Part shown: piece by piece, positions 4,606-51,690 of the stretch
Numbering within the stretch: position 1 is the stretch's first letter
Layout: every line of letters starts with the position of its first letter
From: Clostridia bacterium
GTDB taxonomy: Bacteria; Bacillota; Clostridia; Christensenellales; Borkfalkiaceae
Assembly: GCA_017507045.1 (NCBI GenBank)
Contig: JAFWBP010000001.1
Span: 1 to 64,000, forward strand
Direction: 5' to 3'
Length of the DNA stretch: 64,000 bases
The notes under the pieces: model-generated
What the model saw: the letters and a program-made list of their open reading frames with translations, nothing else
Told to the model about the DNA's origin: nothing
The model's database searches: none
Made by a program: the position numbers and the translations under genes

Positions 4606-4621
4606 TTATCCCTGCTTGTTC

Positions 4622-4650: not shown

Positions 4651-4735
4651 GTGAGTAGAATTCAAAAGGATATTCCTTTACGTTGTTATTATACACGAAA
4701 CGCAAGGAAAAATAAAGAGTTTTACGGAGTAAATT

Positions 4736-5728: not shown

Positions 5729-5753
5729 TAATAAAAACATTTGAGGTGATATC

Positions 5754-6947: not shown

Positions 6948-6983
6948 TTTTTCGCAAATTTACAAATAAAGCGCAAAAATCGG

Positions 6984-7012
6984 TTGACAAACCTATATAA
7001 ATATCCTATACT
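6984..7012 (+). promoter_or_regulatory. Sigma-A promoter of yceD-rpmF
   Basis: TTGACA (6984-6989), 17-bp spacer, TATACT (7007-7012). The ATG at 7023 is only 10 nt beyond the -10, so the 5' leader would be about 0-5 nt. No Shine-Dalgarno is visible. Confidence 0.8.
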
Positions 7013-7022
7013 TTTTAAGTCA

Positions 7023-32052: not shown

Positions 32053-32763
32053 ATGCACGAAGGTCACAGAAAGCGTATGCTCGAGCGAGTCCGCAGCAAT
32101 CAGGGCGGACTGCAGGATCATGAGCTTTTGGAGATTTTACTTTTCAATACGATTCCGCGCAAGAACACAAATCCGCTTGCGCACACCTTGCTTGCATCAT
32201 TCGGCTCGCTTGATGCCGTAATGAAGGCTTCCTATGAGCAGCTTCTCGAGGTGCAAGGGATCGGAGAAACGACGGCGGCTTATCTCAGCTGTATTGCCGA
32301 GCTATACCGGCGTCTTCCCGAGAAGAATGGGCCTCCAAAAATTTTCAGAGCAAAGGAATTTTGCGCGTACCTCGTTGAGCATTTCCGAAACGAGAAGGAT
32401 GAAGTGATTGAAATCTATTGCCTCGACGCAAAGGATTCTATCCGCTTTATGAAGCGCTTCACGGATGATAAAAAGAGCAGTGCCTCCGTGCGGCCGGAGA
32501 TCGTGAACGCTGTCATTCATGCGCATAAGCCCAAAGCGCTCGTTGTGGCGCACAATCACCCGAATGCAGCATGCAAGCCCTCCTTTGAGGATGATAGGTT
32601 CACGGCAAAGTTGCAAATGCTGTGTTCAATGAGCAACGTGAAATTTTACGATCATGCCATTGTTGGAACGGATGGCTGTTATAGCTACTATATGGCAGGA
32701 AAGATGGAGGAATTTCAAAGGAACTACAACATCGAGAAGCTTACCGGAGGGAGTGGAGAATGA
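32053..32763 (+). CDS. radC: RadC family JAB-domain protein
   Basis: 236 residues. A UPF0758 N-terminus with helix-hairpin-helix (LLEVQGIGETTAAYLSCIAEL) precedes the JAMM metalloprotease-like domain with VVAHNHPNAACKPSFEDD (HxHPx10D zinc site). RadC's role is unsettled: despite its name it is not required for repair in E. coli, and homologues are frequent on mobile elements. The stop overlaps the histidine kinase ATG by 4 bp, so it is coupled to a two-component system, an unusual pairing. Confidence 0.9.
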   Translation: MHEGHRKRMLERVRSNQGGLQDHELLEILLFNTIPRKNTNPLAHTLLASFGSLDAVMKASYEQLLEVQGIGETTAAYLSCIAELYRRLPEKNGPPKIFRAKEFCAYLVEHFRNEKDEVIEIYCLDAKDSIRFMKRFTDDKKSSASVRPEIVNAVIHAHKPKALVVAHNHPNAACKPSFEDDRFTAKLQMLCSMSNVKFYDHAIVGTDGCYSYYMAGKMEEFQRNYNIEKLTGGSGE

Positions 32764-33986
32764 AGGATCTCTTCGATAAAAATTTCCCCTCAAAGCTTGT
32801 TCTTGCAAATTATAAGATCATCCTTTTTGGGCTACTCGTTTTGGTTGAGATTTTTCTTGCCGCAAGTAATTGGAGCAACGTTTACTTTGCAAATATCCCG
32901 GCGTGGTATGCCATTCTGCCCGTTACCATCTTTCTTACCGCGGAGAACGCCGTTAAGCTGTGGGCGTTGAAAAAGTTTTCCGAGAAGCTTGCGTTCTATA
33001 TTATGGACGTTGCGGCGCTGCTCGTACTCACCATCTTTACGAACGGCGTGCTAATCTCAATTCTCTACATGATCATCCTCAGTGATTTCTATCTTTGTCA
33101 GGAAAAATTGCGCGATAACTTGATCATGGGTGCCAGTTGCATCGTCACCTTCCTCATTACGTTCGCGCTTTCCAACTCGCTCAAAGGAATAGAGGTAGAT
33201 GCGATTGCGCTCGTTTCCAACATGCTCAGTGATATCCTGCTTATTTCACTGCATTTCGTGATTCTTCATTTTTCTATTCGCCTTTATCGCAAAAATCAGG
33301 AGATAGAAGGAACGCTCGAGGAGCTGAATGAGAGCAACTCCAAGCTCCAGGCGGCGTATGCTGAATTGCACGAAATCACTGCACTTGAGGAGCGTCAGCG
33401 CATCGCAAAAGATATTCACGATACAGCGGGCCACTCGATCACGACGGTTATAATGCAAACGGAGGCCGCAAAGCTTATCATTGATGAGGACCCCTCCGAA
33501 GCGAAGCGAAAGCTTACGGCAGCGAACCTGCAAGCAAAGCGCGCCTTGGAGGAATTGCGAGAGAGCGTGCACGTTCTTTCAGGCATGGTAGGGGGGCACA
33601 CGCTCAAAGAATCCCTTCTTGAGATCATTCACGATTCTTCAGACGGCACCGGCGTAAAGATCCGCTACGATATTGATGATATTGAACTGTGCGATGCAAA
33701 GCGCAGATTTATTCTCAACTCGCTCAAAGAGGGCATCTCCAATGGGCTACGCCACGGCAACGCCACTGCTTTTTGGTTCGAGCTAAAAGCGGAGGAAGGG
33801 AAGGTTCATTTTCTGCTCTCGGATAATGGGGAAGGCCAACAAATCGCGGCGCTTAAGGAGGGCTTCGGGCTCTCGGGGATGCACGCACGCGCAGAATCGC
33901 TCGGTGGCGAGGTTTGGTTTGAAACGGAGCCGGGTGAAGGTTTTGAAATTCATCTTGTTTTGCCGGCAGATGGCAACATGGAGTGA
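32760..33986 (+). CDS. NarL-type sensor histidine kinase
   Basis: 408 residues. About six hydrophobic segments in residues ~17-185 with short loops suggest a membrane-embedded sensor, as in DesK-type kinases that monitor the membrane. A coiled coil (EIEGTLEELNESNSKLQAAY) leads to the HisKA_3 box ALEERQRIAKDIHDTAGHSI with the phospho-accepting His. The HATPase has LKEGISNGLRHGNAT (N box) and SDNGEGQ, GFGLSGMHARAESLGG (G boxes). The partner response regulator is 6 bp downstream. The signal and targets are unknown. Confidence 0.92.
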   Translation: MKDLFDKNFPSKLVLANYKIILFGLLVLVEIFLAASNWSNVYFANIPAWYAILPVTIFLTAENAVKLWALKKFSEKLAFYIMDVAALLVLTIFTNGVLISILYMIILSDFYLCQEKLRDNLIMGASCIVTFLITFALSNSLKGIEVDAIALVSNMLSDILLISLHFVILHFSIRLYRKNQEIEGTLEELNESNSKLQAAYAELHEITALEERQRIAKDIHDTAGHSITTVIMQTEAAKLIIDEDPSEAKRKLTAANLQAKRALEELRESVHVLSGMVGGHTLKESLLEIIHDSSDGTGVKIRYDIDDIELCDAKRRFILNSLKEGISNGLRHGNATAFWFELKAEEGKVHFLLSDNGEGQQIAALKEGFGLSGMHARAESLGGEVWFETEPGEGFEIHLVLPADGNME

Positions 33987-33992
33987 GGCAGT

Positions 33993-34637
33993 ATGATAAA
34001 AGTACTCATAGTCGATGATCAGGCAATTCTTGCCGACGGAATCAAAAGCGTGCTTTCCTCCTGCGCAGAGTTAGAAGTAGTTGGTATCGCGCAGGATGGC
34101 TTTCAGGCGCTCGAGGCGGTAGCCATGTACGCGCCGGACGTCGTGCTCATGGATATTCGCATGCCGAATATGAACGGTGTAATCGCCACACAGGAGATCA
34201 AGAGGAGGAGCCCTGAAACGAAGGTGCTCATTCTTACGACTTTCGACGATAGCGATTACATTCTCAATGCGATCAACTATGGCGCAAGCGGCTATCTTTT
34301 GAAGGATGTTTCCGCCGCCGCACTCATCGACGCGGTGAAAAACGCCTACGCAGGGGATACCATCCTTCCTGCCAAGATCGCTCGGCGCATTGCCGATGCA
34401 GCGAGAATGGTAAGCTCCGATCGGGAAATTCGCCTAAAGCGCGCCTTCGGGCTTTCCGATCGTGAGGTAGAAATCGCGCTTATGATCTACGAGGGATTTA
34501 CAAACAAACAAATCGCTTCCGCCTTAAAACTTTCCGATGGTACGGCGCGAAACTATATCTCCTCAATTTACGAGAAACTCTCCGCCGCCTCTCGCATAGA
34601 GGCAATGGAGAAGATGCGCGCGCTTTTGAAGGGATGA
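33993..34637 (+). CDS. NarL/LuxR-type response regulator
   Basis: 214 residues. Receiver domain with VDDQ acidic pair, DVVLMDIRMP (phosphorylated Asp), ILTTFDD and the Lys of GYLLKDVS. C-terminal LuxR helix-turn-helix: LSDREVEIALMIYEGFTNKQIASALKLSDGTARNYISSIYEKL. It should bind DNA as a dimer once phosphorylated by the adjacent kinase. It ends the radC-kinase-regulator operon, with two terminator-like hairpins downstream. Confidence 0.94.
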   Translation: MIKVLIVDDQAILADGIKSVLSSCAELEVVGIAQDGFQALEAVAMYAPDVVLMDIRMPNMNGVIATQEIKRRSPETKVLILTTFDDSDYILNAINYGASGYLLKDVSAAALIDAVKNAYAGDTILPAKIARRIADAARMVSSDREIRLKRAFGLSDREVEIALMIYEGFTNKQIASALKLSDGTARNYISSIYEKLSAASRIEAMEKMRALLKG

Positions 34638-35636: not shown

Positions 35637-35680
35637 CACGGGAACCGTGCACTCAATCCGAAATCGGATGCTCAGGAGGA
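35637..35680 (+). promoter_or_regulatory. Two leader hairpins and a strong ribosome site
   Basis: GCACGG-GAA-CCGTGC is followed by ATCCG-AAAT-CGGAT, then AGGAGGA (35674-35680) 5 nt before the ATG. The hairpins could stabilise the long mRNA or control translation. Confidence 0.65.
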
Positions 35681-35685
35681 TTTTT

Positions 35686-38600
35686 ATGAAAAAAAGATGG
35701 ATATCGGCTTTAACGTTGCTCGTGATCGCCTTTGTGGCGGTATTCAGCTTTGGATGTGCCTACGTCTTTGAAGAAGAAAAATTTACGGTTACGTTTATGA
35801 GTAACGGTGCAATCGTCTTGGAGGAGGAGTATGAAGCAGGGGAGCAGGTTGTATTCCCTGAGGACCCTGCGCCCTATTCCGATGATCACTACGAATACAC
35901 GTTTGTGGGTTGGAATTATAATTACGGCGATCCGAACAGCGAATGCGTAACCGAGCTCACCGTTGCGCATCACGACGTAACGCTTTATGCAGCGTTCAAG
36001 CGTGATGCCATTGTGAATACGGGAACTTTCCGTGTTCGTTTCCGCGATGGTATCACGGGTGAACTTTTGAAGGCGGAGGATGTTCCGAACGGCGGCAGTG
36101 CCACTGCGCCCACACCCATTGATCATACTGGCTCGCACATGCAGTTCTCGCATTGGAGCGAATCTTTCGATATCGTTACGGCGAGCATGGAAGTTTACGC
36201 AATTTACAGCGGTGTTCCTTACCCCGTAGAGGAGCACGTTTTGGATGAAGTCCGCAGTATTGAAGTGCCCTACGGTGAGCGCCTCAATCGCCACGTTCTC
36301 GATCTCGGCAGTGGCGATGGCATTCCGCTTGCGTTCAAGTTCGAGGGTTGGTTCCTTGATGAAGAATACACGCAGCGAATCACTGCGGAAGATTTGATGC
36401 CGGCGCCCGAAAAAGCGGGCGAACCTCTTCACGTTTACGCAAAATTCAGCATTCGCAGCTTCACGGATACTTCCAATACCGCAACGATCGATACTTCCGG
36501 CGCACTCATCTACGGCGGTGGCGACGATTATCTTTACGTTCGCAACCTTGATGATGCGGATGGGCTCATCTATACCTACGAGTGGAACGTAACGTTCAAT
36601 GATAAGCCGTTTACCGGTTCCGAAAAGCAATACGATCTTTTCGGGGCAGGGGAGTACGCTGTGTCCGTGAACGTTACGGCAAATTATAAAAACGGCGTGC
36701 TCGTGCAGAGCAAGCAGCTTTCGCGCGCGGCAACCGTCACCAAAGCGGTGCTCTCGCTCAACAATATCGGAATCGATAGGAATACCCTCGTTTACGGCGA
36801 GGGCGCGCCCAGAGCCACCTTCGATGCGAGCGGCTTCCAATATGAGGATGGGGAAGAGCTTTTTAACATCACCTATCGCTACGTGCTCGGCGGCAATACG
36901 CAGGATTCTGCAGAAAATAACGACGACTTGAAAACCGTTCGCCTTCCCGTAGGCCGCTACGCCTTGATCGCGGAGATCGCCGAACTTGCGAATTACACCG
37001 TCGATTGTGAGGATATGGATGAGAACGGCGTTGCCGATCTCGAAGAGATTTCTTTCAGTGTCACGAAAAAAGAGGTGCGCTTAAATCTTACGGTTGCGAG
37101 CAATACCTATGGGGAAGACGAAGGCTTCCTTCCCACGCTTACGTTTGAGGATGGCTTCGGGCTTGCTTACGGCGAAGCCTTTGATTCCGTAACGGGCGGT
37201 GTTCTCGGCGCGCCGGAATACGTAGTTGCAGGTAGGGCAAACAGCGGCAAAGAATATAGCGGCCCGATGGACTACGGCTACCGTATCTATGCTGGCGAAA
37301 GCTACACGGCTTCCGTGAAGGGAATGAACGAGAACGGCAACTACACAGTAGTTCTTCCTGCAGCAGTTAACTTTGCAATCGCACGCAGAGATTTTAAGGT
37401 TACCGTTTATGTGAACGATACCTCTTTCATCTACGGCGAGATTCCGCAGTTTACGTTTGCAACGAACGCATTGGAAACCGATCGTGCGGATTTTGGCGTG
37501 AGGGCATGGGCATACACTCTTGGCGAGGGCTCAAGTACTTTCTACAATGCAGATTACTTGCTCGATGCAGGCAGCTATGCCGTTACCGTTTTGGCTGATA
37601 GTTTTGAGCGGCTTGGCGATAACGCTGCAAACTACGAGGCTCCTACGCAAGAAAACATCTCCGTTGCGAACTTCAAAATTGAGAAAACGGCTCTCAAAAT
37701 CGGCATAGAGGAGATCAAAAATTATACTTACGGCGATCACGGCGGAAACGATCCCGTGCCCAATGCCACCTTCGAGGGCTTTGTAAAGAACCCGAACGGT
37801 GAATACCAGAAGGCAGAAGTTTTAGGCGGCACGTTCTATTGGACGTATTATGCCGCCGATTCCGCCGTGTACAGCACTACGGATCCTGCAATCGGAAAAC
37901 GGGTGCAGGGCAACTACGCCGTAGGCACATACACGATCACGCCCTCCGGCTACACTTCGGAGAACTACGAAATTGAGTTCTTCAGCACCGAGCTTACCAT
38001 CGCGAAGGCAAGCCTTAAGCTTACCGTCGGCCTTTCCAATCTCAATGATGCGAACGCGCTCATCTATGGCACGCGCCCCAGCTTGCGCATAAGTTCGGGC
38101 TATACGAACGGCATCTTTTACGAGGGTTTCGTGCAAAGTAACGGCATGTATGAAACGGTGGAAGCCGTATTTGCCGATGCAGTGCCTACCGTTACCTATT
38201 TCGATGCGCAAAACAAAGTGATTTCTGCCAACGGCGTGTTCCACGTTGGTAGCTTTACTGCTGATCTTTTGGCTGAAACCCTTGCAAAGGCAAAGGCTAC
38301 CGCAACGAATTATGAGATCACGGTCACGCCCAAGGCGTTCAGCGTTACCCCGAAACAGCTCACGATCACGCCTATCGTAACCGCTGGCTTGATCTATGGC
38401 GATACATTTATGCCCGATTTTGTGGCAGAAGGCTTTGCATATGAGGATGGAAGATCGGTGCTCGATGCAAGCGGTTCCGTGTATTCCTATCAAAAGGGCG
38501 GCGCAAGCTACACGGGCAACGTGCATGAAGGTAAAACCTATTTCGATGCCGGCGATTACACCGTGAACGTAGCAGGTTTTGAAGCTGCCGATTATACCTT

Positions 38601-41600
38601 CCGTTACCTTTCCTCCACATTCAGAGTGGGAGTGCGGAATGCAACGGTCAACATCTCCGCAACGGGTGCAACCTACGGCGCGAATCCCATCGTATCCTAT
38701 ACGGCTCCCAATGTTCTTACTTGGGATATGGATGGATTTGCCTTCGCCTATGAATATCAGTGGTACGTAAACAACGGTTACAGAGATTACGATTCTGAGG
38801 CGTATACCTATTTCCAGGCGGCGGAATATCGCGTAACTTTGAACTATGAGCCGAATGCGAACTACAATCTCACCGTTCGCGGTGAAGGTGTGGCTATCTA
38901 TGCGCGCTTTGAAATCACGAAGGCACCGCTTTCGATCGGCGTGAAGAACGTGAATGCTTCCTATGTGTACGGAACCGCTCCCGCGCCTCAATTTACGTAC
39001 GCAGGTTTCGTAGAAAACGAAAACGAAAGCGTTCTTAACGGCGGCCGCTTCTTATACGCCGTTACAAGCGAAGCAAACAATACGAATGCAAATATCTCCC
39101 GATTTACGGTGGGTAAGTATACCGTTGCCGCGAGCGGTTTCAGCGCGAATAACTATGAAATCGAGCACGAATCGGCAACCGGCTTTGAGATCACGAAAAA
39201 AGCTCTCACGATCACCGTTTCCGTTGAGAATTTTACCTACGGCGAAAGCTTTGTTCCCATGCTTTCTTACGAAGGCTTCGTTTACGGTGAGAATGAGAAT
39301 ACGAGCGATCTTGTGGGATCTGCTATCTACACGGTAAACGGGAACCGTTATGCGCCGAACGCATTCTTCAGCGCGGGTGCAGGTGAGGGCTACACCGTAT
39401 CCGTAAGCGGACTCATCTCCCAAAATTACGAGATCACGTTTGCAGAAGGGCGTTTCAATGTTGCCAAGGCGATCCTCACCGTTACCATCAGCGGTGTCAT
39501 CGGTTTTACCTACGGAGAAAAGAACGTTCCCGCACTTATGGCTACGGTGAGCGGCTACGTTCACGGTGAAACGGATAGAACGGCCGGCATCGTAGGCACA
39601 ATATCCTACACCTACACCGGAGATACGAACGGCAACGAGGATAACACGGCAAACGGCCGCTTGCGCGCCGATACTTATACGATCGGGGCAAGCGGACTTT
39701 CTGCGGCGAACTACGAATTTGATTACGTGTTCGAGAATGGAATCAACACGTTCACCGTTGCGCCGCGCGCCATCACCATCACGCTCTTTGAGGGCTGGAA
39801 TATCTACGGAGGGGATCCCACGGCGTACGCTTGGTACACCCTCGAAGGCACGATTTACGATAGTGAGCTCACCTTTACGCCCGTAATCTTAAAGGGAGGT
39901 GAAAGCTACGAGGTTGCAAGCGAGCACCACTTCTCAATCGGCACCTACACGATCTCCGTTTCCTATGTAGCCAACCCCGATTATAAAGTAGGCGTAGGAA
40001 GCGTGGGCACCATATCCGGTAACACCGTTACGAAAACATTTACGATAGCGCCCCGCCCCATTGAAGTGGAGCTGACCGTGCGCGGCTCTGTGAATCCGGG
40101 AACGTACACCTACGGCCAAATTTCCGCAGCTGATTACGAGCCCGAATGGGAAGTTACGGGCAGATACAATATCTTTGCGGAAGATAGAGTTGATAATTAC
40201 TTTGTTGCCGCCGTTGCAAATGCAAACGGTTATTTCGGCGTGGGCACGCATACCGTCACTTTGATGATTCAGGTAGGCGAAAACTACGCAGTTACGTTCA
40301 ATACCCCGCAATTCACCGTTGTACCGAAGAGTGTCACGATCACGCTTTCGCAGATTGCGAATTACACCTACGGCGAGCTTGAAAAAACATTTGCGCCGAT
40401 TATCACCGTAGATGGGCTTCTCACTGCCGAGAGAGATCTACAATCTACTCTTCTGGAAGCGGTACTAGTAAGCTATTCCCGCAACGGTGGGGCATACGTG
40501 CCGAATACCGCCTTCTTCGATGCAGGCTCTTATGCCGCAACGATGGGTTTTGCCGTCGATTTTAATACGCAAGCAAACGGCTATGAGAATTATAATTTCA
40601 CTTTCAAATACGTAAGCGCAACCGGCTCCGCCGAGAACGTTTCGTTCAATATCGCAAAGGCGAAATTTGATATCAATCCCACGCTGCCTTCCATGTCTCC
40701 CACGAAGGGTGCGAATTGGGCATACGCGCCGGAATTCGGTAGCGGCTTCTTCGAGAGCAACGGTTTCCGCTTCAACGGCACGATCAAATTGCAAAGCGCC
40801 ACGCCGGGTACCTACACTGCAACGAGTGAAGCAACCTTCAACACCTTCTTTGAATGGGAAGAAGGGAAATTCTCCATCACTTTGAATGGCTTGGAAGTAA
40901 CCGATAACTTCGAATTAACCTACCGCTTATCGCTTTTGATCAGCTCTTCAAACTATAAGGTAACGCCTCACCTCATCAATGCAAACGGAGGAATGCAGGA
41001 TGTTGACGTCGGTGGTGATAACGTTTATTCTGCAGATTTCACCTACGACGGCCGCACTTACGCATTCACCATCGAAGCGTACGCCTTGAAAGATGACACG
41101 GTTACCGATGAAACCGATCCTTCCGTGTTCATCACGGTTGAATACAGCACCCAAAGAGAGGGTGGTTGGAGCGAAGAGCCGTTCGCATTCCTGAGTGTGA
41201 ACGATAGCACTACCGTTTACTACCGCATTTCTACGGATAACGCGAACTACGGTGAGCAGATCGGCTCCTTCCAAATCGATATCGCAAGGGCGCAGAATGC
41301 AATCAGCACGCAGAACGTTGTGGGTACTGAATTCACCTATGATAGCGATGCACATACGGTCGATTTCACCAAAGCAACGGCTTCCTTCGGTGCGATCACG
41401 TATGCAGAAGGCGGTATCGCGATTGAAAATGGAAAGAAGGCCTATACGAATGCAGGCACGTACACCGTAACGCTCTTCGTTGCGGGAACGGATGATTACG
41501 ATGGCGCCACGGCAACCGTTACCGTCAGCGTTGGAAAAGCTGCTTTGGGCAACGTAAAATTTAACACGCCCAATGTATTCACCTATAATGGCGCAAAACA

Positions 41601-44600
41601 GGGCTATGGCATTTCCGAAGTGGAAGGTGTAAAGAATTCTTCTATCCCGGCAAACGATTTCTCGATTACCTATCAAACGGGCGAGGAAGCATATTCCGAA
41701 GCGATCAGGCAGTTCATGAGAGCCGGCACCTATACTGTTCGATATAACATCGCAGAAAGCGAGAATTATTTCGGCACGAGCGGGGAGTTTACCATTAGAA
41801 TCGCAAGAGCAACACTCAACGTAACGAATCCTGCCGATATGCAAAAAACTTACGCCGCCACTGCGTATTGGTCTGGGCTTTCCGATGCAAGCTTTGATAA
41901 TCTTCAAACGGGGGATACTTTCGCGCCAACCTATCTTTGGAAGGAAGCGCCTTACACAGGAAGCGGATTTACGAATGTTGGCACCTATCAGCTTACGTAC
42001 ACGGTAAAGCTCTACCATGGCAATGAAGACGTAACTGATTGCTATAATATCACCTACGGCGCAGCAAACGCGGCAAACTCCGCGAACGGTGCGTTCAAAA
42101 TTCAAATCGATAAGGCGCCGCTTACGGTGAATAAAGCCGATGTCTCCGGACTCACTTACGATGGTCATGATCAATTCAGTGAGCTTTTGGCTTCCGAAGT
42201 TAGCGGTCGGTATAACGATGGCTCCACGTTAAGCTTCACCTACAGCACGAGCGAAGCGGGAAGCTACGGCGAACCGTTTGAAGCGAAAAACGCCAATACC
42301 TACACGGTTTATTACAAAGTCTCCGCAGGTTCCAATTACGAGGAGGCTACGGGTTCGTATACAATCACGATCGCCCCGAAAGAGCTGACCGTCACGCTTC
42401 CTGCAGCGCAGAGCGGCACCTTTGGAAACACGTTCGAATGGCAAGGCGCATTCGCGGAAACGGGTGTTGAGGGCGAGGCAATCTCCTTCGTGTATTCCTA
42501 CACGGGTAACTATATGATCGGTGGTGCTTCCGTGGATATTAACGGCAACGATCTCAGCCTTGAATACCTGAAAGCCATCGAGGACGCCGGAAACTATACG
42601 TTTGCTTTCGAATACCTTATCAACGGCAACGAGGATATCGGAAACTATAGTATCACGAATGCAGATGCCACCTTCAAGATCACGATCGGCAAGGCGCAGG
42701 GCGAAATTACGTTGCCTACGCTCACTACGGAATTTACCTATCTTGGCGAAGAGCAAAAGGTAGATCTTTCCGCCGTAACGAAGGTTGGCGATGGCGTGCT
42801 TACCTACACGGTTAACGGCGAGCAAAAGGCGATGGCAACGCCTTTCACCTTCACCACCGTTGCAGATGGAAACAAAACGCTCACCGTAAATCTTTCTGAA
42901 ACGCGCAATTATAAAGGCGCTTCGGAAGAAATTGAAATCACGGTCAACAAAGCTATGCCGGTGTTGGATAGCTATACAGAGGAAACAGAATATACCTACA
43001 CTGCAGGCAACACGTCTCTAATTGCTAATAATAAGAATGATGAGCATATCATCTCCATAATTAAAGGGCTTGATGCGCATGAAAACGTTTACAGTGATGC
43101 TCAATTCACGATCATCGGTATCAAATACGTTACCGCGGATGGGGAAGAGCATGCTTTTGATGAGAGCAACTTAAATTCTGCCCTCTCCGAAGCCGGAACT
43201 TACGCCGTCACGGTTCAAGTAAGCGGTGCGAATTATGAAGAGGCTACCACCACCTTTACCTTCACCATCAATCCGGCGCCGCTTACGGTATCTAAAGATA
43301 ACATTTCCGGTTTAACCTATAATGGCTCGGATCAGTTCAGTGCGCTCACAGATTCCAACGTTAGCGGTCGGTATAGCGATGGTTCCTCGTTTAGCTTCAC
43401 TTACAGCACGAGCGCAGAGGGCGATTACGAGGGAACGTTTGAAGCGAAAAACGCCAATACCTACACGGTTTACTATAAAGTCTCCGCAGGTTCCAATTAC
43501 GAGGAGGCTACGGGTTCGTATACGATCACGATCGCCAAGGCGCAGCTTACGGTATCTAAAGATAACATTTCCGGGTTAACCTACAATGGCTCGGATCAGT
43601 TCAGTGCGCTCACAGATTCCAACGTTATCGGTCGGTATAACGATGGCTCCACGTTAAGCTTCACCTACAGCACGAGTGAAGCGGGAAGCTACGGCGAAAC
43701 GTTTGAAGCGAAAAACGCCAATACCTACACGGTTTATTACAAAGTCTCCGCAGGTTCCAATTACGAGGAGGCCACGGGTTCGTATACAATCGCGATCGCC
43801 AAGGCGCCGCTTACGGTATCTAAAGATAACATTTCCGGGTTAACCTACAATGGCTCGAATCAGTTCAGCGCGCTCGCATTGGGAAATGTTACGAGTACGC
43901 TTTATGGAAACGATAGCGCTCTTCTTTCTTTCACTTACAGCACGAGCGCAGAGGGCGATTTCGAGGGAACGTTTGAAGCGAAAAACGCCAATACCTACAC
44001 GGTTTACTATAAAGTCTCCGCAGGTTCCAATTACGAGGAGACTACTGGTTCGTATACGATCGCGATCGCCAAGGCGCAGCTTACGGTATCTAAAGATAAC
44101 ATTTCCGGGTTAACCTACAATGGCTCGAATCAGTTCAGTGCGCTCACAGATTCCAACGTTAGCGGTCGGTATAGCGATGGTTCCACGTTAAGCTTCACCT
44201 ACAGTACGAGCCTAGCGGGAAGCTACGGCGAAACGTTTGAAGCGAAAAACGCCAATACCTACACGGTTTATTACAAAGTCTCCGCAGGTTCCAATTACGA
44301 GGAGGCTACGGGTTCGTATACGATCATGATCAACAAGGCAAATGCTCCTGCGCCTACGAATCTTCCGGCGTCTATTGATGGCGGATTCCGTTATTATGGT
44401 CAAACGCTTGAAAGCATTGCGATCAAAACCCTTTTGGGAGAATATTATAGTTGGGTAAATGTGAGCGAGCCGATCAAGGGATCTGATAGTTCCGTGTATG
44501 CCTTTATTTACAATCCGAACCCTGACAATTACAACGATTATGAGGGCGAAATAACTGTCATTACAGAAAGAACGGTAATCACGCTCACTCCTTCCTCTGC

Positions 44601-47600
44601 TGAGATTGCCGTCAACTATGGTAGCACTGCTGCAGATGCCGTGGAGCAATTTGATTATAGCCTTGCGACTGAAGCCCGTGCACTTTCCGAAACGGAACAG
44701 AGCTATCTCACGGGTAAATTTAATATTTCCATTTCGGATGGTGTTGATTTCAGCATCGGTAGCACGTATCTTGCAATATTCAACATCGAGCTTAACGATG
44801 ATTATTATGAAATTGCAGATGGTGCAGAATGTGATCCTGCAGTTCTTCTTAAAATCAGGTCTGTACAAATTGGTGTGCGAGATGTATCCAACAATAATGC
44901 TTGGAACGATCCTACCGAATGGGGAAATGAGGAGAATTGGTATACGATTGAAGAGGCATTGCATGCGGCACAACCGACTGGCGATCCGAATCTTGAAACG
45001 ACGATTCGCATTGTAGGCAATATTTCCGGTACGATAGAAACCAAGTTCTCTGAACTAGATTCGTTCATAACCGGGTATGATGATAGTAGCTACTACACGA
45101 TTAAAAATGGTGTGGCGTTACTTTTGCCTGTTGTTGATATAAATAATACGAATCAAAGCGGTGCTGCCCGTGCATATACTACCGGAACGAATGGAGAATA
45201 TTTCTCCGGTTTTACTGCTTCGGGGAGCATGTCGGGCTTGTTTGGAGGCAGTAGGACGGTTCCTTCGAGAGGGAATGCGGATACCGTTCCTGTGAATTTC
45301 AATCAAGCTACGCCGCTCTATTCTCGCCTTACCGTGCCGAGCGAAGTCACGCTTAATATTGCGGATGGTGGAACTCTCACCGTGGGCGGTATTACAGGTG
45401 CTGGTGTACGCGTAACATTGATCGGACATCTCAACCGTGTTTCCGGCAGTTATTCGGAGCTTAAGCTTGAAGGAAACATTGAAAGCGAGGGGACAATCAA
45501 TGCCTATGGCAATATCGTGGGCAATGGTAGCATCAATGCAAAGGCCGGTATTGTGCGCGAGCGTTTTGAAGTACTCGATTCTCCTGCTTTAGCTAATTTC
45601 GTTGGTCGATATTTTGGCAACCGAAAGGTTAGTCCATCAGATCTACTCGGTGGCAACGATATAGTTGTTGCTAACCCCAACGAATTCCCGTTAGAAAACT
45701 ATCAACTCGTTGCTATTAGCACTATGTTGAACGTCCATTCCGGCGCACAATATTTAGGGAATTTCCGGATGTTTGTGGAAGGGATTTCCATTTCGGCATC
45801 CAGTATGGCAATTATTAATGCCGGTGCACAATTTTCGATTGCCGATTTCGTGATTACAAGCAAATATGAGGGCGATTCAGATGCCAATGGCTTTGTCTTG
45901 CTTCAAGATGGAGCAGTTCTCACGAAAACGGTGTACGAAAGTACTGATGAAAACAATGAAGAGCTAAAATATCTTCGATTTAAGTTTGAAATTAACGGTG
46001 GGGCTGTCGGCGGAATCGTTTCCCTGGGGTTAAGTGTTTTTGGCACGATAATACGAGTAAATAGCAGTGAGCTTAAGTTCCCTATATCCAGTACTATGGA
46101 TTTAGTGTTAAAGAACGGAAGCTATTTGTTCGAGCACGGTTATGAATTTATTGGAACTACCCTGATTGGCTTTAATAATAAGGATGATGAAAGCAGTGAT
46201 GACGATGCAGGGCATACCGATCCGGCTATCAATCCTAATGTCAGAACCGCAACGGGTGCAATTCTTACGCTTGCAGATAATGCGAATGTTACGTTGCGGA
46301 GCCCGCGCGCTAATAGCAGTAATGGAAAAGGAATTATTTTCTATACCGGTTCTAAGCTTACTGTTGGTGGCGGATGCGCGCTTACCATTGGCGGTCAGCT
46401 TGGCGGCAATATCATAGGTGAAAAAGGGGCAATCATCAACGTTGAGAGCGGCTTAGCGCAGGCAATAGGCTACAATGGCGGCACAGGCAACTTTGTTATC
46501 AGTCCGACCGATATTATATCGCAGTTGACGGGTTATAAAATCCCGATTACTTTTGAAGGCACGGAAACAAATTCTTCTGCAATCGGAGCACTTAAGGAGG
46601 GGAACCAGAAGGAGTTCGGCAAAGGAGTAACTTATTATCATAACGGAGAGTATTGGGTAAGCGGGGATGCGCAGTATTCTATTACCTACAAATACTTCTA
46701 CCGCGATGCAGAAGGCAGATTGCAGGCAATTGATTCTGCTCTTATCGCAGATGAAAGCGGGAACCCTACATTCGTTACACCTAATAGCGGAGTCACTTAT
46801 CTCTCCTTTGGCGGCATCACATATCCCGAGTACACGTTCACGGGTTGGTATGCAGATGAAGCATGCACGCAAACCACGAATTCGATTAATGGTTTGGAAA
46901 TGCGTGAATATATCATTTACGGTCTGTTTGAAAAGGTGCCGGTATACAATTTCTCGTATAATACGAACTACAACACGTTAAATGATAATGGTTCTGTGAA
47001 TGAAAGCGGCACAAATAGTGGAATCAACATGAATAAAGTTCCCGTCACAAAAGAGCTGCTTGATGATTTTGTTAGCGGTTCGCAGATCAACGCGCAGGAT
47101 AACGATGTATCCATGCAGCGCTACTTTGCAGGCTGGTATCTCTATGATGGAACAACGGGCAAGTGGATGCCTTACTCTGCAGAAAATGTGATCGCAATTT
47201 ACGGAGAATTGGATGCGCTCGATATTGAAGTACAACTTTATGCCGTTTGGGCGGATAAGATTCATGTAATCTTTGAAGCAGATACTGAAGCCTCGTATAA
47301 CAGATACGATGCTGGCTTCTATAGAATGGGAGATACGGTTTCTCCGCTCGGCTACAATAATGGCAACAAGGATCCTGAGATTTCTACTTACTTTGTAGAT
47401 TGGAGAAATGAGAACGGCGAAATTAGATTTGTAAATTCGTACACGATTCCCATGGGCACGGCCGATGGTACGGTAATCACATTTATTGCGCATCGACAGA
47501 ACAAGGTATACGTAGAGTTCATAGATGAAACTGAAAAAATTGAATATGCATGGGAAGGTTATTATATGGCAGGTTCTTTGGTTGCACCTTCCAATTATAG

Positions 47601-49089
47601 CAATGGGAATAATGATCCTACCGTTACAACGTATTTTGTCGAATGGATAAGCGATAGTGGGATCACGATTACCAACTCCTATGAGATTCCTGCAAATACG
47701 GCCGGTGGCACGGTAATCACATTTACTGCCAACCGTGCGGCTAAGATTACGGTTAACTTCACAGATAGCGTGAAGGATCCGAAAAAGGTTTACACAGGAA
47801 CAGGTTATTATATGCCCGGCAGTTTGGTTGAGGCTCCCGGTTATATCAGTGGAAATGCAGATCCGAACATATCGACGTACTTTATCGAATGGCAGCATAA
47901 TGGAGAGCCGTTCGATAGAATTCCGGAAAACACTCCTGTAGGTACGACAATTGAGCTAATTGCTTCTAGAGAATCGAAAATAAAAGTTAGCGTTGAGAGG
48001 CAATTGGTTGATGCAAACGGAAAGGAAGTTAATAAAAATGTTGGAAAGTATTTGCAACTCGATATAATAGCTACTGATCCGTCAGGAGAAGAAATCGCGT
48101 GGATTGATGATACGGATACCACGCAAACGTCCAGCAAGACAGGATATTTTATATCTGGCACGAACCTTACAATTAGCATAAAATATTGGAAAGATACTGG
48201 TACTCTCGTAGAAAGTAGTTGTGTAAACGATTCTGGCTGGATCACGATAGGCAATGTAAAGACAGCTGTTAAGAGTGAGGAAAAAACAAATGTTGAAGTT
48301 ACGAATGAACTCAACATTATTTTCGGTGCACAATACGCGTCAAGTGAAGGGCTCGGCAGCCTCTGTCTTGTTGAAGGCACGCTCGTTATGCTCGCAGATG
48401 GTACGCAGAAGAAGGTAGAAGATCTTGCTATGGGCGATATGCTTCTTGCGTTCAATCATCTAACTGGTCAATATGAGGCAAGTCCGATGCTGATCAACCT
48501 GCACGCGCTGGATGAGAGTATGTGGTGTAGAGTAATCTATTTGACGTTCTCCGATGGAACAAGAATCGGCGTCATCACAGATCACGCTTTCTTCGATCGC
48601 GATTTGAACAAGTATGTTTACATCAATGAAGAAAATGCAGCCGAGTATATTGGGCATAAATTCGTTCAGGTTCAAAGCGAGGGCGGCGAGTTCGTCAGCG
48701 GTGAAGTCGTGCTTACAGGAGTGGAAGTCGTTGAAGAGTTTGTTAGAAGATTCTCGCCTATCAGCGGCTTGATTAACGTGGTTACGGGAGGATTGTTGAG
48801 CTTCACCGAGGTCATCAATGAGGAAGGCCCGATTCACGGTGCGATCAATATCTTCGAATTCGATGAGAACATGAAGTACGATGAAGAGAAGATGCAGGCG
48901 GATATCGAGAAGTACGGCCTCTACACCTATGAGGATTTCAAGGATTATATGAGCTATGAAGAATTCATAAGCTTCCCTTGGGCGTATTTCAAGGTCGCAG
49001 TCGGCAAGGGTAACCTCACGTGGGAAGATATTCTTTGGAATATTCAATATATCCAAGAGCAGTTAATTTTACAGGCTAAAGCTGAGTAA
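35686..49089 (+). CDS. Giant exported repeat protein with C-terminal Hint domain
   Basis: 4,467 residues. N-terminal signal with possible lipobox (VFSFGC, Cys24). Residues ~34-257 are InlB/Listeria-Bacteroides-type beta-grasp repeats (VTFMSNG, FVGWNYNYG). Residues ~260-2140 are many MBG-like modules marked by YTYGD, GFVY, NYEIxF and LTIxKA. Five near-identical ~88-residue units lie at ~2144-2231 and 2531-2884. Residues ~2885-3655 are Gly/Asn-rich, probably beta-helical. InlB-like repeats return at ~3660-4100. The end is a Hint domain starting at Cys4227 (SLCLVEGTLVMLADG, then DLAMGDMLLAF and ITDHAFF), with TGGLLSF where inteins have the terminal HN, so splicing is unlikely but N-terminal cleavage is possible. 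No LPxTG or C-terminal anchor is seen. Start at 35686 behind AGGAGGA. Probably a surface adhesin or matrix protein; function inferred from architecture only. Confidence 0.88.
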   Translation: MKKRWISALTLLVIAFVAVFSFGCAYVFEEEKFTVTFMSNGAIVLEEEYEAGEQVVFPEDPAPYSDDHYEYTFVGWNYNYGDPNSECVTELTVAHHDVTLYAAFKRDAIVNTGTFRVRFRDGITGELLKAEDVPNGGSATAPTPIDHTGSHMQFSHWSESFDIVTASMEVYAIYSGVPYPVEEHVLDEVRSIEVPYGERLNRHVLDLGSGDGIPLAFKFEGWFLDEEYTQRITAEDLMPAPEKAGEPLHVYAKFSIRSFTDTSNTATIDTSGALIYGGGDDYLYVRNLDDADGLIYTYEWNVTFNDKPFTGSEKQYDLFGAGEYAVSVNVTANYKNGVLVQSKQLSRAATVTKAVLSLNNIGIDRNTLVYGEGAPRATFDASGFQYEDGEELFNITYRYVLGGNTQDSAENNDDLKTVRLPVGRYALIAEIAELANYTVDCEDMDENGVADLEEISFSVTKKEVRLNLTVASNTYGEDEGFLPTLTFEDGFGLAYGEAFDSVTGGVLGAPEYVVAGRANSGKEYSGPMDYGYRIYAGESYTASVKGMNENGNYTVVLPAAVNFAIARRDFKVTVYVNDTSFIYGEIPQFTFATNALETDRADFGVRAWAYTLGEGSSTFYNADYLLDAGSYAVTVLADSFERLGDNAANYEAPTQENISVANFKIEKTALKIGIEEIKNYTYGDHGGNDPVPNATFEGFVKNPNGEYQKAEVLGGTFYWTYYAADSAVYSTTDPAIGKRVQGNYAVGTYTITPSGYTSENYEIEFFSTELTIAKASLKLTVGLSNLNDANALIYGTRPSLRISSGYTNGIFYEGFVQSNGMYETVEAVFADAVPTVTYFDAQNKVISANGVFHVGSFTADLLAETLAKAKATATNYEITVTPKAFSVTPKQLTITPIVTAGLIYGDTFMPDFVAEGFAYEDGRSVLDASGSVYSYQKGGASYTGNVHEGKTYFDAGDYTVNVAGFEAADYTFRYLSSTFRVGVRNATVNISATGATYGANPIVSYTAPNVLTWDMDGFAFAYEYQWYVNNGYRDYDSEAYTYFQAAEYRVTLNYEPNANYNLTVRGEGVAIYARFEITKAPLSIGVKNVNASYVYGTAPAPQFTYAGFVENENESVLNGGRFLYAVTSEANNTNANISRFTVGKYTVAASGFSANNYEIEHESATGFEITKKALTITVSVENFTYGESFVPMLSYEGFVYGENENTSDLVGSAIYTVNGNRYAPNAFFSAGAGEGYTVSVSGLISQNYEITFAEGRFNVAKAILTVTISGVIGFTYGEKNVPALMATVSGYVHGETDRTAGIVGTISYTYTGDTNGNEDNTANGRLRADTYTIGASGLSAANYEFDYVFENGINTFTVAPRAITITLFEGWNIYGGDPTAYAWYTLEGTIYDSELTFTPVILKGGESYEVASEHHFSIGTYTISVSYVANPDYKVGVGSVGTISGNTVTKTFTIAPRPIEVELTVRGSVNPGTYTYGQISAADYEPEWEVTGRYNIFAEDRVDNYFVAAVANANGYFGVGTHTVTLMIQVGENYAVTFNTPQFTVVPKSVTITLSQIANYTYGELEKTFAPIITVDGLLTAERDLQSTLLEAVLVSYSRNGGAYVPNTAFFDAGSYAATMGFAVDFNTQANGYENYNFTFKYVSATGSAENVSFNIAKAKFDINPTLPSMSPTKGANWAYAPEFGSGFFESNGFRFNGTIKLQSATPGTYTATSEATFNTFFEWEEGKFSITLNGLEVTDNFELTYRLSLLISSSNYKVTPHLINANGGMQDVDVGGDNVYSADFTYDGRTYAFTIEAYALKDDTVTDETDPSVFITVEYSTQREGGWSEEPFAFLSVNDSTTVYYRISTDNANYGEQIGSFQIDIARAQNAISTQNVVGTEFTYDSDAHTVDFTKATASFGAITYAEGGIAIENGKKAYTNAGTYTVTLFVAGTDDYDGATATVTVSVGKAALGNVKFNTPNVFTYNGAKQGYGISEVEGVKNSSIPANDFSITYQTGEEAYSEAIRQFMRAGTYTVRYNIAESENYFGTSGEFTIRIARATLNVTNPADMQKTYAATAYWSGLSDASFDNLQTGDTFAPTYLWKEAPYTGSGFTNVGTYQLTYTVKLYHGNEDVTDCYNITYGAANAANSANGAFKIQIDKAPLTVNKADVSGLTYDGHDQFSELLASEVSGRYNDGSTLSFTYSTSEAGSYGEPFEAKNANTYTVYYKVSAGSNYEEATGSYTITIAPKELTVTLPAAQSGTFGNTFEWQGAFAETGVEGEAISFVYSYTGNYMIGGASVDINGNDLSLEYLKAIEDAGNYTFAFEYLINGNEDIGNYSITNADATFKITIGKAQGEITLPTLTTEFTYLGEEQKVDLSAVTKVGDGVLTYTVNGEQKAMATPFTFTTVADGNKTLTVNLSETRNYKGASEEIEITVNKAMPVLDSYTEETEYTYTAGNTSLIANNKNDEHIISIIKGLDAHENVYSDAQFTIIGIKYVTADGEEHAFDESNLNSALSEAGTYAVTVQVSGANYEEATTTFTFTINPAPLTVSKDNISGLTYNGSDQFSALTDSNVSGRYSDGSSFSFTYSTSAEGDYEGTFEAKNANTYTVYYKVSAGSNYEEATGSYTITIAKAQLTVSKDNISGLTYNGSDQFSALTDSNVIGRYNDGSTLSFTYSTSEAGSYGETFEAKNANTYTVYYKVSAGSNYEEATGSYTIAIAKAPLTVSKDNISGLTYNGSNQFSALALGNVTSTLYGNDSALLSFTYSTSAEGDFEGTFEAKNANTYTVYYKVSAGSNYEETTGSYTIAIAKAQLTVSKDNISGLTYNGSNQFSALTDSNVSGRYSDGSTLSFTYSTSLAGSYGETFEAKNANTYTVYYKVSAGSNYEEATGSYTIMINKANAPAPTNLPASIDGGFRYYGQTLESIAIKTLLGEYYSWVNVSEPIKGSDSSVYAFIYNPNPDNYNDYEGEITVITERTVITLTPSSAEIAVNYGSTAADAVEQFDYSLATEARALSETEQSYLTGKFNISISDGVDFSIGSTYLAIFNIELNDDYYEIADGAECDPAVLLKIRSVQIGVRDVSNNNAWNDPTEWGNEENWYTIEEALHAAQPTGDPNLETTIRIVGNISGTIETKFSELDSFITGYDDSSYYTIKNGVALLLPVVDINNTNQSGAARAYTTGTNGEYFSGFTASGSMSGLFGGSRTVPSRGNADTVPVNFNQATPLYSRLTVPSEVTLNIADGGTLTVGGITGAGVRVTLIGHLNRVSGSYSELKLEGNIESEGTINAYGNIVGNGSINAKAGIVRERFEVLDSPALANFVGRYFGNRKVSPSDLLGGNDIVVANPNEFPLENYQLVAISTMLNVHSGAQYLGNFRMFVEGISISASSMAIINAGAQFSIADFVITSKYEGDSDANGFVLLQDGAVLTKTVYESTDENNEELKYLRFKFEINGGAVGGIVSLGLSVFGTIIRVNSSELKFPISSTMDLVLKNGSYLFEHGYEFIGTTLIGFNNKDDESSDDDAGHTDPAINPNVRTATGAILTLADNANVTLRSPRANSSNGKGIIFYTGSKLTVGGGCALTIGGQLGGNIIGEKGAIINVESGLAQAIGYNGGTGNFVISPTDIISQLTGYKIPITFEGTETNSSAIGALKEGNQKEFGKGVTYYHNGEYWVSGDAQYSITYKYFYRDAEGRLQAIDSALIADESGNPTFVTPNSGVTYLSFGGITYPEYTFTGWYADEACTQTTNSINGLEMREYIIYGLFEKVPVYNFSYNTNYNTLNDNGSVNESGTNSGINMNKVPVTKELLDDFVSGSQINAQDNDVSMQRYFAGWYLYDGTTGKWMPYSAENVIAIYGELDALDIEVQLYAVWADKIHVIFEADTEASYNRYDAGFYRMGDTVSPLGYNNGNKDPEISTYFVDWRNENGEIRFVNSYTIPMGTADGTVITFIAHRQNKVYVEFIDETEKIEYAWEGYYMAGSLVAPSNYSNGNNDPTVTTYFVEWISDSGITITNSYEIPANTAGGTVITFTANRAAKITVNFTDSVKDPKKVYTGTGYYMPGSLVEAPGYISGNADPNISTYFIEWQHNGEPFDRIPENTPVGTTIELIASRESKIKVSVERQLVDANGKEVNKNVGKYLQLDIIATDPSGEEIAWIDDTDTTQTSSKTGYFISGTNLTISIKYWKDTGTLVESSCVNDSGWITIGNVKTAVKSEEKTNVEVTNELNIIFGAQYASSEGLGSLCLVEGTLVMLADGTQKKVEDLAMGDMLLAFNHLTGQYEASPMLINLHALDESMWCRVIYLTFSDGTRIGVITDHAFFDRDLNKYVYINEENAAEYIGHKFVQVQSEGGEFVSGEVVLTGVEVVEEFVRRFSPISGLINVVTGGLLSFTEVINEEGPIHGAINIFEFDENMKYDEEKMQADIEKYGLYTYEDFKDYMSYEEFISFPWAYFKVAVGKGNLTWEDILWNIQYIQEQLILQAKAE
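42115..42378 (+). repeat. 88-residue repeat unit, copy A
   Basis: 264-bp copy of the unit repeated at 43276-44337, starting APLTVNKADVSGLTYDG. Its 3' half is almost identical to the later copies, while its 5' part has diverged. Confidence 0.88.
43276..44337 (+). repeat. Four tandem 264-270-bp near-identical repeats
   Basis: Copies start at 43276 (264 bp), 43540 (264), 43804 (270) and 44074 (264). Each encodes LTVSKDNISGLTYNGS ... EAKNANTYTVYYKVSAGSNY ... and ends in YTI(T/A)IAKA. Copy three has a two-residue-longer central segment. In-frame lengths allow copy-number change without frameshift. Confidence 0.95.
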
Positions 49090-49097
49090 TCGGCAGT

Positions 49098-49126
49098 CCA
49101 TCGCCCACCTTGCGTGGGCGATGGGA
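49098..49126 (+). terminator. Hairpin after the giant gene
   Basis: CCATCGCCCA and TGGGCGATGG form a perfect 10-bp stem with a 7-nt loop. No T tract follows, so read-through into the ABC genes is possible. Confidence 0.55.
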
Positions 49127-49202: not shown

Positions 49203-50000
49203 ATGGCATACTACAATCAACCGAATGGGGCGCCCGTGGCAGGCGCACAGCGCCCCAAGAGCGAGCGCAAAGAGGTCGTTCGCGTGAAGGGGCTCTGCAA
49301 AAAGTACTCCAAAAACGCAGATTGGGCGGTGAAGAACATCTCGTTCAGCTGCTTTGAGGGGGAGATCGTGGGCCTTCTCGGGCATAACGGCGCGGGAAAA
49401 TCTACCACGATCAAGTGCCTCGAGGGCATGCTGCCTTATGAGCGTGGGGAAATCGCCATTGCAGGCCACGATATCCAAAAGGATCCCCTCGCGGCGAAGG
49501 CGAACATGGGCTTCGTTACGGATAACCACGCCGTATTCATCAAGATGACGGGCATGCAGTACATTAACTTTATGGCAGACGTCTATAAAGTTCCCACGCA
49601 GCTGCGCGTGAAGCGCCTTGCCGCGCTCGAGAAGGTATTCCAGCTCGGCTCGGCCATTCACAACCTCGTCTCCTCGTACTCCCACGGTATGCGGCAGAAG
49701 GTGTGCATGATGGCTTCGCTCATCCATCACCCCAAGCTTTGGATCTTGGACGAGCCCATGACCGGCCTTGACCCGCGCACGATGAAAGCAGTGCAGGATT
49801 TTATGCGCCGCTACGCCGCCGCAGGCAATACGATCATCTTCTCTTCGCACGCGCTCAACACCGTTGCGAAGTTGTGCGATCGCGTCGTGCTCATTCGCAA
49901 GGGCAAGCAGCTGAACGAGATCAACGTGAAGCAGATCTGCGCCATGAACCCTAACTTTGACTTTGAGGAGTACTTCTTAAGAAATGAAAGACAAGATTGA
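49203..50000 (+). CDS. ABC transporter ATP-binding protein
   Basis: 265 residues. A Pro/Gly/Asn-rich N-terminal extension of about 22 residues precedes the nucleotide-binding domain: Walker A LGHNGAGKSTTIK, signature SYSHGMRQK (a variant of LSGGQ common in ABC-2 exporters), Walker B LWILDEPMTGLD and the switch His in IIFSSHALN. GGAGAG precedes the ATG. It overlaps the permease gene by 17 bp. It lies 113 bp after the giant exported-protein gene, and the pair looks like a dedicated exporter. Confidence 0.94.
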   Translation: MAYYNQPNGAPVAGAQRPKSERKEVVRVKGLCKKYSKNADWAVKNISFSCFEGEIVGLLGHNGAGKSTTIKCLEGMLPYERGEIAIAGHDIQKDPLAAKANMGFVTDNHAVFIKMTGMQYINFMADVYKVPTQLRVKRLAALEKVFQLGSAIHNLVSSYSHGMRQKVCMMASLIHHPKLWILDEPMTGLDPRTMKAVQDFMRRYAAAGNTIIFSSHALNTVAKLCDRVVLIRKGKQLNEINVKQICAMNPNFDFEEYFLRNERQD

Positions 50001-51690
50001 TTTTTCGCTCGTGAGGGCGCTCCTTCGAAAACAGCGGCAGGAGCGGCACTTTGCCTATGCGAAGGGAAACTTTGATGCGCTTGGCTTCTTCCTGCGGCTG
50101 GTGCTTGTGGGAATCTTCGTGGCGGTATTCGTGGTGTTCTTCGGGCAGTTCATGGAGATCTATCTCCAGCAACGCACGAATAATCTCCTTAACCCCGATG
50201 CGCGCCTCTACGAAATACTTACGTTTGCGTATCTCGTGATACTCGTTGCAATGACGTTCGGTGGCGTTTCCGCCATCACGCGTGAGATCTTCCTCGCCGA
50301 CGATATGAAGGTCTTTTCAGCGATGCCCGTGAGCGCAAAAACGCTCTTCGTTGCCAAGCTTATCACGATCTACCGCAGCCAGCTTCTCATTGGACTCCTT
50401 GCAGTATTCACGGTGAACGGCACGGCGCTTCTTCACTATCAGGCCGAGCTTTGGTTCTATCTCTCCTCGGTGGCGCTCTGCTTCGTGTTGCCGCTCATAT
50501 CCATCGCACTTGCTTCCATCATCGCATTGCCTTACTTTATGCTTCGGCAATACATCATGCCCCGCTTTGTGCTCATGTTCATCGTGATCACCTTCCTTGC
50601 GGCAATGGCAATTTGGCTATACTCTCTCCTTTTAGGCATGGTGGAACATATGCTCAGCGGGGATAGGGATTGGACGTACTTCTTCGATGAATCGGTAATG
50701 AACGTCATTCGCACGGCCGTCTCCTATTGCTATCCCGCAAACTGGATGGCGAGCTTGATTATGCAACGTAACGTTCTTACGTGCAGTATCGGCATCACGA
50801 TTCTCGTAGCAGTGTGTATTGCGATCACGATGCTTGTCATCGGCAATATTCTCACGCGCATCCTGCAATCGCGCATTTCGGGTGACGTGAACTTCATCTA
50901 TCCCGCACAGGATGTTGGCGAGCGGCAAACGACGACGGCCGCACTCCTAAAAAAGGAGTTCGTAATGATCTTCCGCACGCCTTCGTATATGTTCTCATAT
51001 TTCTCTGTTGCGCTGTTAATGCCGCTCATGACGTATTTCTGCATGAACGTGGCCGGCTCGCTCATCTCCTCAACCGTTGGCATAGCCTTCGATTTCAGCG
51101 TTGAGCTTGCAGTATTCTTAACGTTGCTCTTCTCGGCGCTCACGAACGTTTTCTGTTCCACAAACATCAGCAGAGAAGGTTCTATGCTCTACACGGTGAA
51201 AGCGTTGCCCGTGAGCCATGGGCAGTTCTTCTTCTCAAAGGTCATCTTCTGCATGCTCGTTACCGTCGTTTCGCAAACGATCTCGGCGATCGTGCTCGCG
51301 GCAACGGGCTACGTGAATTGGCTGGTGGCGCTCTTCCTGTTTGCGGTTGGCGTGGTATTTAGCTTCGCGCAGATCTGCTTTGCAACGCGCTACGATTTCA
51401 ATCACGCGCGCTTCTCTACGGAGGATGACGGCGAGATCAAAGAAGCCGGTAGTACCGCTTCTACCATCATCGTCTTGGGCATGGTAGTCTCATTTCTTAT
51501 CGGTATTGCCACGATCGTTGTGAAAATGGTGCTTTCCTTCAATGCCGGTGGAGAAACTGCTTCCTTCGATTACCTCACGTACCTGATCGTTGGCGGCAGC
51601 GTTATCTTCGTTGCGGCGCTTGCCTGCATCTACTTAGTCTTTAGGCTCAAGAGAAAATATTATGAGTTTAGCGGAGGAGGTCTTTTATGA
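49984..51690 (+). CDS. ABC-2-type permease, 568 residues
   Basis: A long polytopic protein with about 12 hydrophobic segments in two halves (residues ~30-290 and ~330-555), so one polypeptide may supply both transmembrane halves. The segment AITREIFLADDMKVFSAMPVSA and its later echo REGSMLYTVKALPVSHGQF are the coupling regions repeated in each half, typical of ABC-2 permeases acting on large substrates or regulating membrane proteases (EcsB-like). It starts inside the end of the ATPase gene and overlaps the next gene by 4 bp. The substrate is unknown. Confidence 0.88.
   Translation: MKDKIDFSLVRALLRKQRQERHFAYAKGNFDALGFFLRLVLVGIFVAVFVVFFGQFMEIYLQQRTNNLLNPDARLYEILTFAYLVILVAMTFGGVSAITREIFLADDMKVFSAMPVSAKTLFVAKLITIYRSQLLIGLLAVFTVNGTALLHYQAELWFYLSSVALCFVLPLISIALASIIALPYFMLRQYIMPRFVLMFIVITFLAAMAIWLYSLLLGMVEHMLSGDRDWTYFFDESVMNVIRTAVSYCYPANWMASLIMQRNVLTCSIGITILVAVCIAITMLVIGNILTRILQSRISGDVNFIYPAQDVGERQTTTAALLKKEFVMIFRTPSYMFSYFSVALLMPLMTYFCMNVAGSLISSTVGIAFDFSVELAVFLTLLFSALTNVFCSTNISREGSMLYTVKALPVSHGQFFFSKVIFCMLVTVVSQTISAIVLAATGYVNWLVALFLFAVGVVFSFAQICFATRYDFNHARFSTEDDGEIKEAGSTASTIIVLGMVVSFLIGIATIVVKMVLSFNAGGETASFDYLTYLIVGGSVIFVAALACIYLVFRLKRKYYEFSGGGLL

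Follow-up and report, generated by a model that had tools for sequence, protein, structure and literature searches.

A C-terminal HINT module with a conserved helical tail, carried by exported and phage proteins, suggests an undescribed bacterial way of processing protein ends

The last 241 residues of a 4,467-residue exported protein from a Clostridia bacterium (family Borkfalkiaceae) form a module in which a HINT fold with a conserved Cys/His pair, lacking the residues used for splicing, is followed by a conserved helical tail; computation establishes each of these features, as well as the C-terminal position that the module takes in its carriers. The same ending, about 230 residues long, is found on numerous exported proteins of gut Bacillota that are otherwise unrelated, and on a protein encoded beside the portal gene in their phages; this points to an as yet undescribed way in which bacteria may cut, and perhaps chemically tag, protein ends. 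In the leading reading, to which we give an even chance, these 241 residues are a Hedgehog-like HINT autoprocessing module, with a thioester formed at Cys4227 and resolved by an outside nucleophile with the help of the tail.

A giant repeat protein ending in a HINT domain

The window analysed here comprises positions 1 to 64,000 of contig JAFWBP010000001.1 (assembly GCA_017507045.1), and the giant gene, its parts and the genes described downstream of it lie on the forward strand. The gene occupies positions 35686–49089 as an uninterrupted ORF, its start at the ATG at 35686 being favoured by a ribosome-binding site (AGGAGG, 35674–35679) located 6 bases upstream. The translation opens with a signal sequence (35686–35757), recognised by hydrophobicity and a permissive lipobox pattern. 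Its lipobox-like motif FSFGC ends in Cys24, and a Cys in the same setting is kept in the orthologues L033, L034 and L039; judged from the sequence, the N-terminus looks lipid-anchored. A Flg_new (InlB B-type) repeat (Pfam; residues 33–102, 35782–35991) is followed downstream by MBG_2 repeats (best Pfam match at residues 1087–1165), and Tandem Repeats Finder identified an 88-aa MBG-like repeat in four 264-bp tandem copies (43275–44339). These copies are near-identical, and their number is likely variable. Directly upstream of the giant gene lies a pair of genes for a histidine kinase and a LuxR-type response regulator (32760–34637).

The HINT fold spans residues 4227 to about 4386 (48364–48843) and is identified by profile matches, AlphaFold, Foldseek and the family alignment. 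Pfam Hint (PF01079) matched from residue 4226 with an E-value of 1.2e-4, a match that falls short of the curated cut-off, and comparison of the family profile with solved HINT domains returned BIL2 (8e-6) and Hedgehog 1at0 (1e-3). The AlphaFold model of the module, computed from a 57-row alignment, reached a pLDDT of 93.6 and a pTM of 0.90. Foldseek assigned it the HINT fold with a probability of 1.00, the matching part covering about 155 of 251 residues and the best matches being the Mtu RecA intein (2.3e-8) and Hedgehog structures 6tyy (3.9e-8) and 1at0 (6.5e-8). In a viral structure library, the top match was a Gaeavirus Hint protein, with 241 columns aligned. Given the profile matches to solved HINT domains together with the Foldseek probability, the assignment is not due to chance. 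The predicted nucleophile is Cys4227 (codon 48364–48366) and the block-B His is His4300 (codon 48583–48585); the Hog domain 1at0 aligns to the family profile without gaps between Cys1 and His72, so that His4300 corresponds to Hog His72/H329. Membership of the HINT superfamily by fold, first-residue Cys and block-B His is therefore confirmed, and the initial annotation of a giant exported protein with a C-terminal Hint domain beginning at Cys4227 agrees, in both coordinates and Cys position, with the ORF, the profiles and the AlphaFold model.

A module family with an invariant Cys/His pair and a constant tail

Among 301 genomes of the family, 62 contain a match to the last 261 residues of the protein. 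Its own genome has a second copy (G000:C7), which belongs to a subtilase-domain protein. Scanning 84,980 species genomes yielded 207 relatives. The 79 loci retained all bear titles that place them in Bacillota or Mollicutes; most come from gut MAGs, and the named strain Pumilibacter muris CLA-AA-M08 (carrier L119) is also represented. Copies per genome are few (1–3). No description of the module was found in the open-access literature searched.

Residue counts rest on an alignment of 125 distinct copies, which were taken from Clostridia and Bacilli and again mostly from gut MAGs. Just 5 of its 237 columns are fully invariant, and two of these are the predicted catalytic pair, Cys1 and the block-B His (125/125 each); no functional copy without the Cys was seen among the 125. 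The terminal His-Asn, already reported as absent from the window copy, does not occur in any relative either (0/125), and splicing by the module is excluded on the grounds of these missing residues. The Thr of the TxxH motif is present in only 3 copies. The previous interpretation of ITDH in the window copy as a Thr shifted by one, weakening this copy in particular, consequently falls away: the T is incidental, and the Thr is absent family-wide. A Glu adjoins the block-B His in 80 of the 125 copies. In the column of the Hog general base (D303, which is D46 when counted from the start of Hint), 61 copies have Asp or Glu, and 53 of the 64 others have a His no more than 3 residues away; the window copy has Leu at this column with His as the next residue, in a gapped stretch of the alignment. 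Immediately before the Cys, a small residue is found at position −1 in 70% of copies, versus 42–46% at positions −4 to −6.

In place of the sterol/adduct recognition region of Hedgehog, the module carries a tail of about 80 residues (residues 4387–4467, 48844–49086), delimited by column entropy and AlphaFold helices, of which there are four at the C-terminal end. At 1.72 bits, its mean column entropy is the same as for block B, compared with about 2.2 for most of the remaining HINT domain. The tail was without a match among solved structures and without detectable sequence kin in the PDB, and a search of its own genome with the tail alone returned the two known copies and one insignificant match, nothing more. 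The family consensus ends in LLSMP, the window copy in LLSFT. The distance from Cys to protein end is 215–249 aa in 123 of the 125 copies, and only a single copy among those seen is not C-terminal. The exception, L203 (IMG/VR contig, 4448–7033), is a beta-helix-like protein with a signal peptide and a divergent module in mid-protein, beyond which about 260 residues resemble more of the same protein; a search for relatives of L203 found only L203 itself.

These patterns bear on two readings of the module as a derived form of something else. The match of intein-type profiles to its first blocks, along with the internal position in L203, is what a relic of a selfish intein could leave behind; this origin is largely refuted by the invariant Cys, His and tail, and we give it almost no credence; also against it are the missing His-Asn, the nearly constant C-terminal position, the conserved extra tail and strong constraint across 125 copies on unrelated passengers. 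A pretoxin HINT whose task is to detach a C-terminal toxin from its long stalk on the cell surface is very improbable as well. The large repeat stalk followed by HINT near the C-terminus does recall polymorphic toxins (PMC3482391), and weak PT-HINT matches occur in 6 of 57 members, but throughout the family the 80 residues past the HINT domain stay constant and show no polymorphism, the Asn for a cut after HINT is missing in all, and most members have nothing past the tail. Neither varied toxin-like tips nor immunity genes were seen among the clustered neighbours, and a Pfam search of the own genome for PT-HINT (PF07591) returned none. Taken as Hint plus tail, the module forms a HINT subfamily of its own whose anatomy is Hog-like and which extends beyond the single protein first noticed.

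Passengers, phage carriers and genomic neighbourhood

The N-terminal parts of the carriers are diverse: of 41 scanned, 16 contained Flg_new repeats, 6 subtilases and 4 BspA LRRs, and further passengers include MBG repeats, esterases/hydrolases and one pilin N-terminus. A strong hydrophobic N-terminal segment is present in 44 of 52 complete carrier proteins. Several carriers have unusual architectures. L055 (3461–8422) has a type IV pilin methylation signal at its start and the HINT module at its end; L051 and L054 extend 30–40 residues past the tail to LPxT-like ends (LLPTTSG, LPPSTASG) with no membrane segment; and a carrier of ~4,000 residues (L090, G080:C8) has an in-frame TAA within the HINT domain. 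In one other Clostridia family, tandem clusters (L197, L180, L198, L181; genomes G361, G414, G461) consist of 2–3 adjoining genes that each end in the module.

Phages carry the module too. On two groups of IMG/VR contigs (L283/L284/L287 and L291/L292/L293), it ends a protein without a signal peptide that is encoded directly after the portal, and the starred branches in a quick tree require that phages acquired the module on two separate occasions. Because these carriers lack a signal peptide, the module needs no Sec export. In phages with portals 77–99% identical, the corresponding protein has other C-termini, one of them weakly NlpC/P60-like. Accordingly, the C-terminus of the post-portal protein of gut phages appears as a swappable part (L283, 3320–5620; L286, 5557–7395; L289, 9971–12160; L291, 3330–5708), with the HINT module, the weakly matching NlpC/P60-like domain and an unknown domain as variants next to near-identical portals. 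A tblastn search of plasmid and phage record collections returned no match to the module. Alternation with other C-terminal domains on related phage proteins would also be in keeping with a module that has become unreactive and now serves, as a folded domain, in binding or targeting, as would the loss of the TxxH Thr in 122 of 125 copies. We regard this as quite unlikely, given that the Cys and His, needless for binding, are invariant, and that small residues are preferred at −1.

Downstream of the giant gene, a perfect hairpin read from the sequence, CATCGCCCAC...GTGGGCGATG (49099–49123), stands just 3' of it and separates it from a block encoding an ABC ATPase (49203–50000), an ABC permease (49984–51690) and a surface-type protein of 1,115 aa with a weak Big_2 match (51687–55034). 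The three genes are syntenic in close orthologues only, about a dozen of which have parts of this block (ABC ATPase, permease and a surface protein of 1,100 aa) in common. Except for this ABC exporter block of close orthologues, no conserved partner gene was found among the neighbours.

No sortase was found in the own genome, nor in 300 of 301 sampled genomes of the family, and the translation of the window protein contains neither LPxTG nor a membrane anchor. In a class-wide sample, sortase was present in 5 of 13 module carriers versus 214 of 378 other genomes, and with 5 of the 13 carriers possessing a sortase, the idea that the module substitutes for sortase yielded no clear rule. Covalent attachment to the surface, as earlier envisaged, is a possible use of the module; it is not the sole one, in view of the signal-less phage carriers and the sortases in carriers from other families. 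The other fate proposed at that time, release of the protein, is unlikely for the window copy, whose N-terminus looks lipid-anchored: a lipid-anchored carrier cannot be freed by cutting off its last 240 residues, which would favour trimming or tethering of its far end.

Proposed chemistry and relation to known HINT systems

In the proposed mechanism, Cys4227 would attack the Leu4226–Cys4227 peptide bond (N–S acyl shift), assisted by His4300, to give a thioester. An outside nucleophile, placed with the help of the tail, would then resolve the thioester, so that the passenger is cut from the module and joined to the nucleophile; where no other nucleophile is admitted, water would do so, amounting to simple trimming. 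The window passenger being probably lipid-held at its N-terminus, its far end is what the reaction would modify or tether, without freeing the protein. The lost Thr would call for compensation, perhaps by the Glu next to the His, or may point to a slow or conditional reaction.

That an autoprocessing reaction takes place is, in our assessment, likely. The mechanism draws support from a Cys/His pair that is invariant where so few columns are, from the complete lack of His-Asn, from the fold, the conserved tail and the diversity of passengers, and also from the preference for a small −1 residue and the general-base column with Asp/Glu or a nearby His. Among Hedgehog mutants, H329A is inactive and T326A has greatly reduced activity, while D303H is still active (PMC9163320). 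Counting against it are the loss of the Thr in 122 of 125 copies, the Leu in the general-base column of the window copy, and the search for an acceptor, partner or processed product, which found none; the absence of sortase is not tracked across the class, a number of 1–3 copies per genome is unlike that of a general sorting signal, and the module of L203 is internal. Whether a nucleophile other than water is used is a closer call, which we place at, or slightly short of, the halfway mark. A lipid or a cell-wall amine or alcohol are candidates for such a nucleophile; a self-made sterol-like lipid was considered and set aside, as no squalene-hopene cyclase was found in the own genome.

The main rival is pure self-cleavage, in which water hydrolyses the thioester and the module trims or matures its passenger, as has been proposed for B-type BILs. 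These possess all intein motifs save the C-terminal one, undergo N-terminal cleavage and occur in variable bacterial proteins (PMC7765530; PMC4031507), a precedent for hydrolysis that fits both the universal lack of His-Asn and the diverse passengers, subtilases included. Trimming leaves unexplained, however, why conservation of the tail should match that of the catalytic block and why the module stands at the very end of nearly all carriers, and we hold it to be somewhat unlikely. The resemblance to BIL-B extends to the bacterial hosts, the intein motifs without the C-terminal His-Asn motif and the variable, often exported proteins; the module is set apart from BIL-B, by description, through its fixed 80-aa helical tail at what is nearly always the C-terminus. 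Against the BIL-B motif definition (PMC7765530), His-Asn is absent and passengers are variable, yet the block-B Thr is missing from the module also. It differs from type A BILs and class 1 inteins in that no copy has the terminal His-Asn and the gene ends after the tail.

Hedgehog-type chemistry, which the initial annotation had preferred over splicing, gains from the wider family: every copy keeps Cys and His, none has His-Asn, and the module, C-terminal in all copies seen but one, has a conserved helical tail as in Hog. Like the Hog domain (Hint plus sterol recognition region, or Hint plus ARR in nematodes), it stands at the C-terminus, combines a Cys nucleophile and a block-B His, lacks His-Asn, and places a helical region C-terminal to the HINT fold; in about half of the copies, though not in the window copy, the general-base column has Asp/Glu. 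It differs from Hog in its bacterial and phage carriers, in the missing TxxH Thr and in having no SCYA motif (motif J), where the consensus reads LSMP and the window copy LSFT; its counterpart of the recognition region is such by anatomy alone, the tail having no detected sequence kinship to the SRR. As TxxH and SCYA were both looked for and are lacking, we do not file the module as a Hog domain, and that it works like Hog is retained as the leading reading.

Similarities to other groups are more limited. PT-HINT domains likewise occur on long surface stalks in Bacillota, but the module has neither their variable toxin tip nor His-Asn. Vint (VWA-HINT) and the other C-terminal bacterial Hint-like group of Burglin 2008 (PMC2362128) are also C-terminal with motifs A and B best conserved; unlike Vint, the module has no VWA or Vwaint domains (one phage member gave a sub-threshold Vint match), and the comparison with the other group is by description and not by sequence. 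As with LPxTG signals of sortase substrates, a C-terminal module is common to diverse exported proteins, but here with no LPxTG or membrane anchor, with a reaction that would be self-catalysed and in a genome without sortase.

Even if it does nothing beyond cleavage, the module still represents a distinct HINT subfamily, widespread and overlooked by Pfam and NCBIfam when their cut-offs are applied to the window protein. Hedgehog proteins are described as singular across life in being covalently ligated to cholesterol (PMC7242414). For the question of how such a ligation arose, a bacterial module that shares the Hedgehog anatomy and is found in phages and on many unrelated passengers offers a compact test system. 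More tentatively, we propose that this portable module may join the C-terminal end of its passenger, be it a surface repeat protein, a subtilase or the post-portal phage protein, to one specific nucleophile other than water, as a bacterial and phage counterpart of Hedgehog that dispenses with a sortase-like enzyme. If conjugation of this kind is true, it would constitute a sortase-independent modification of protein C-termini and a possible ligation tool.
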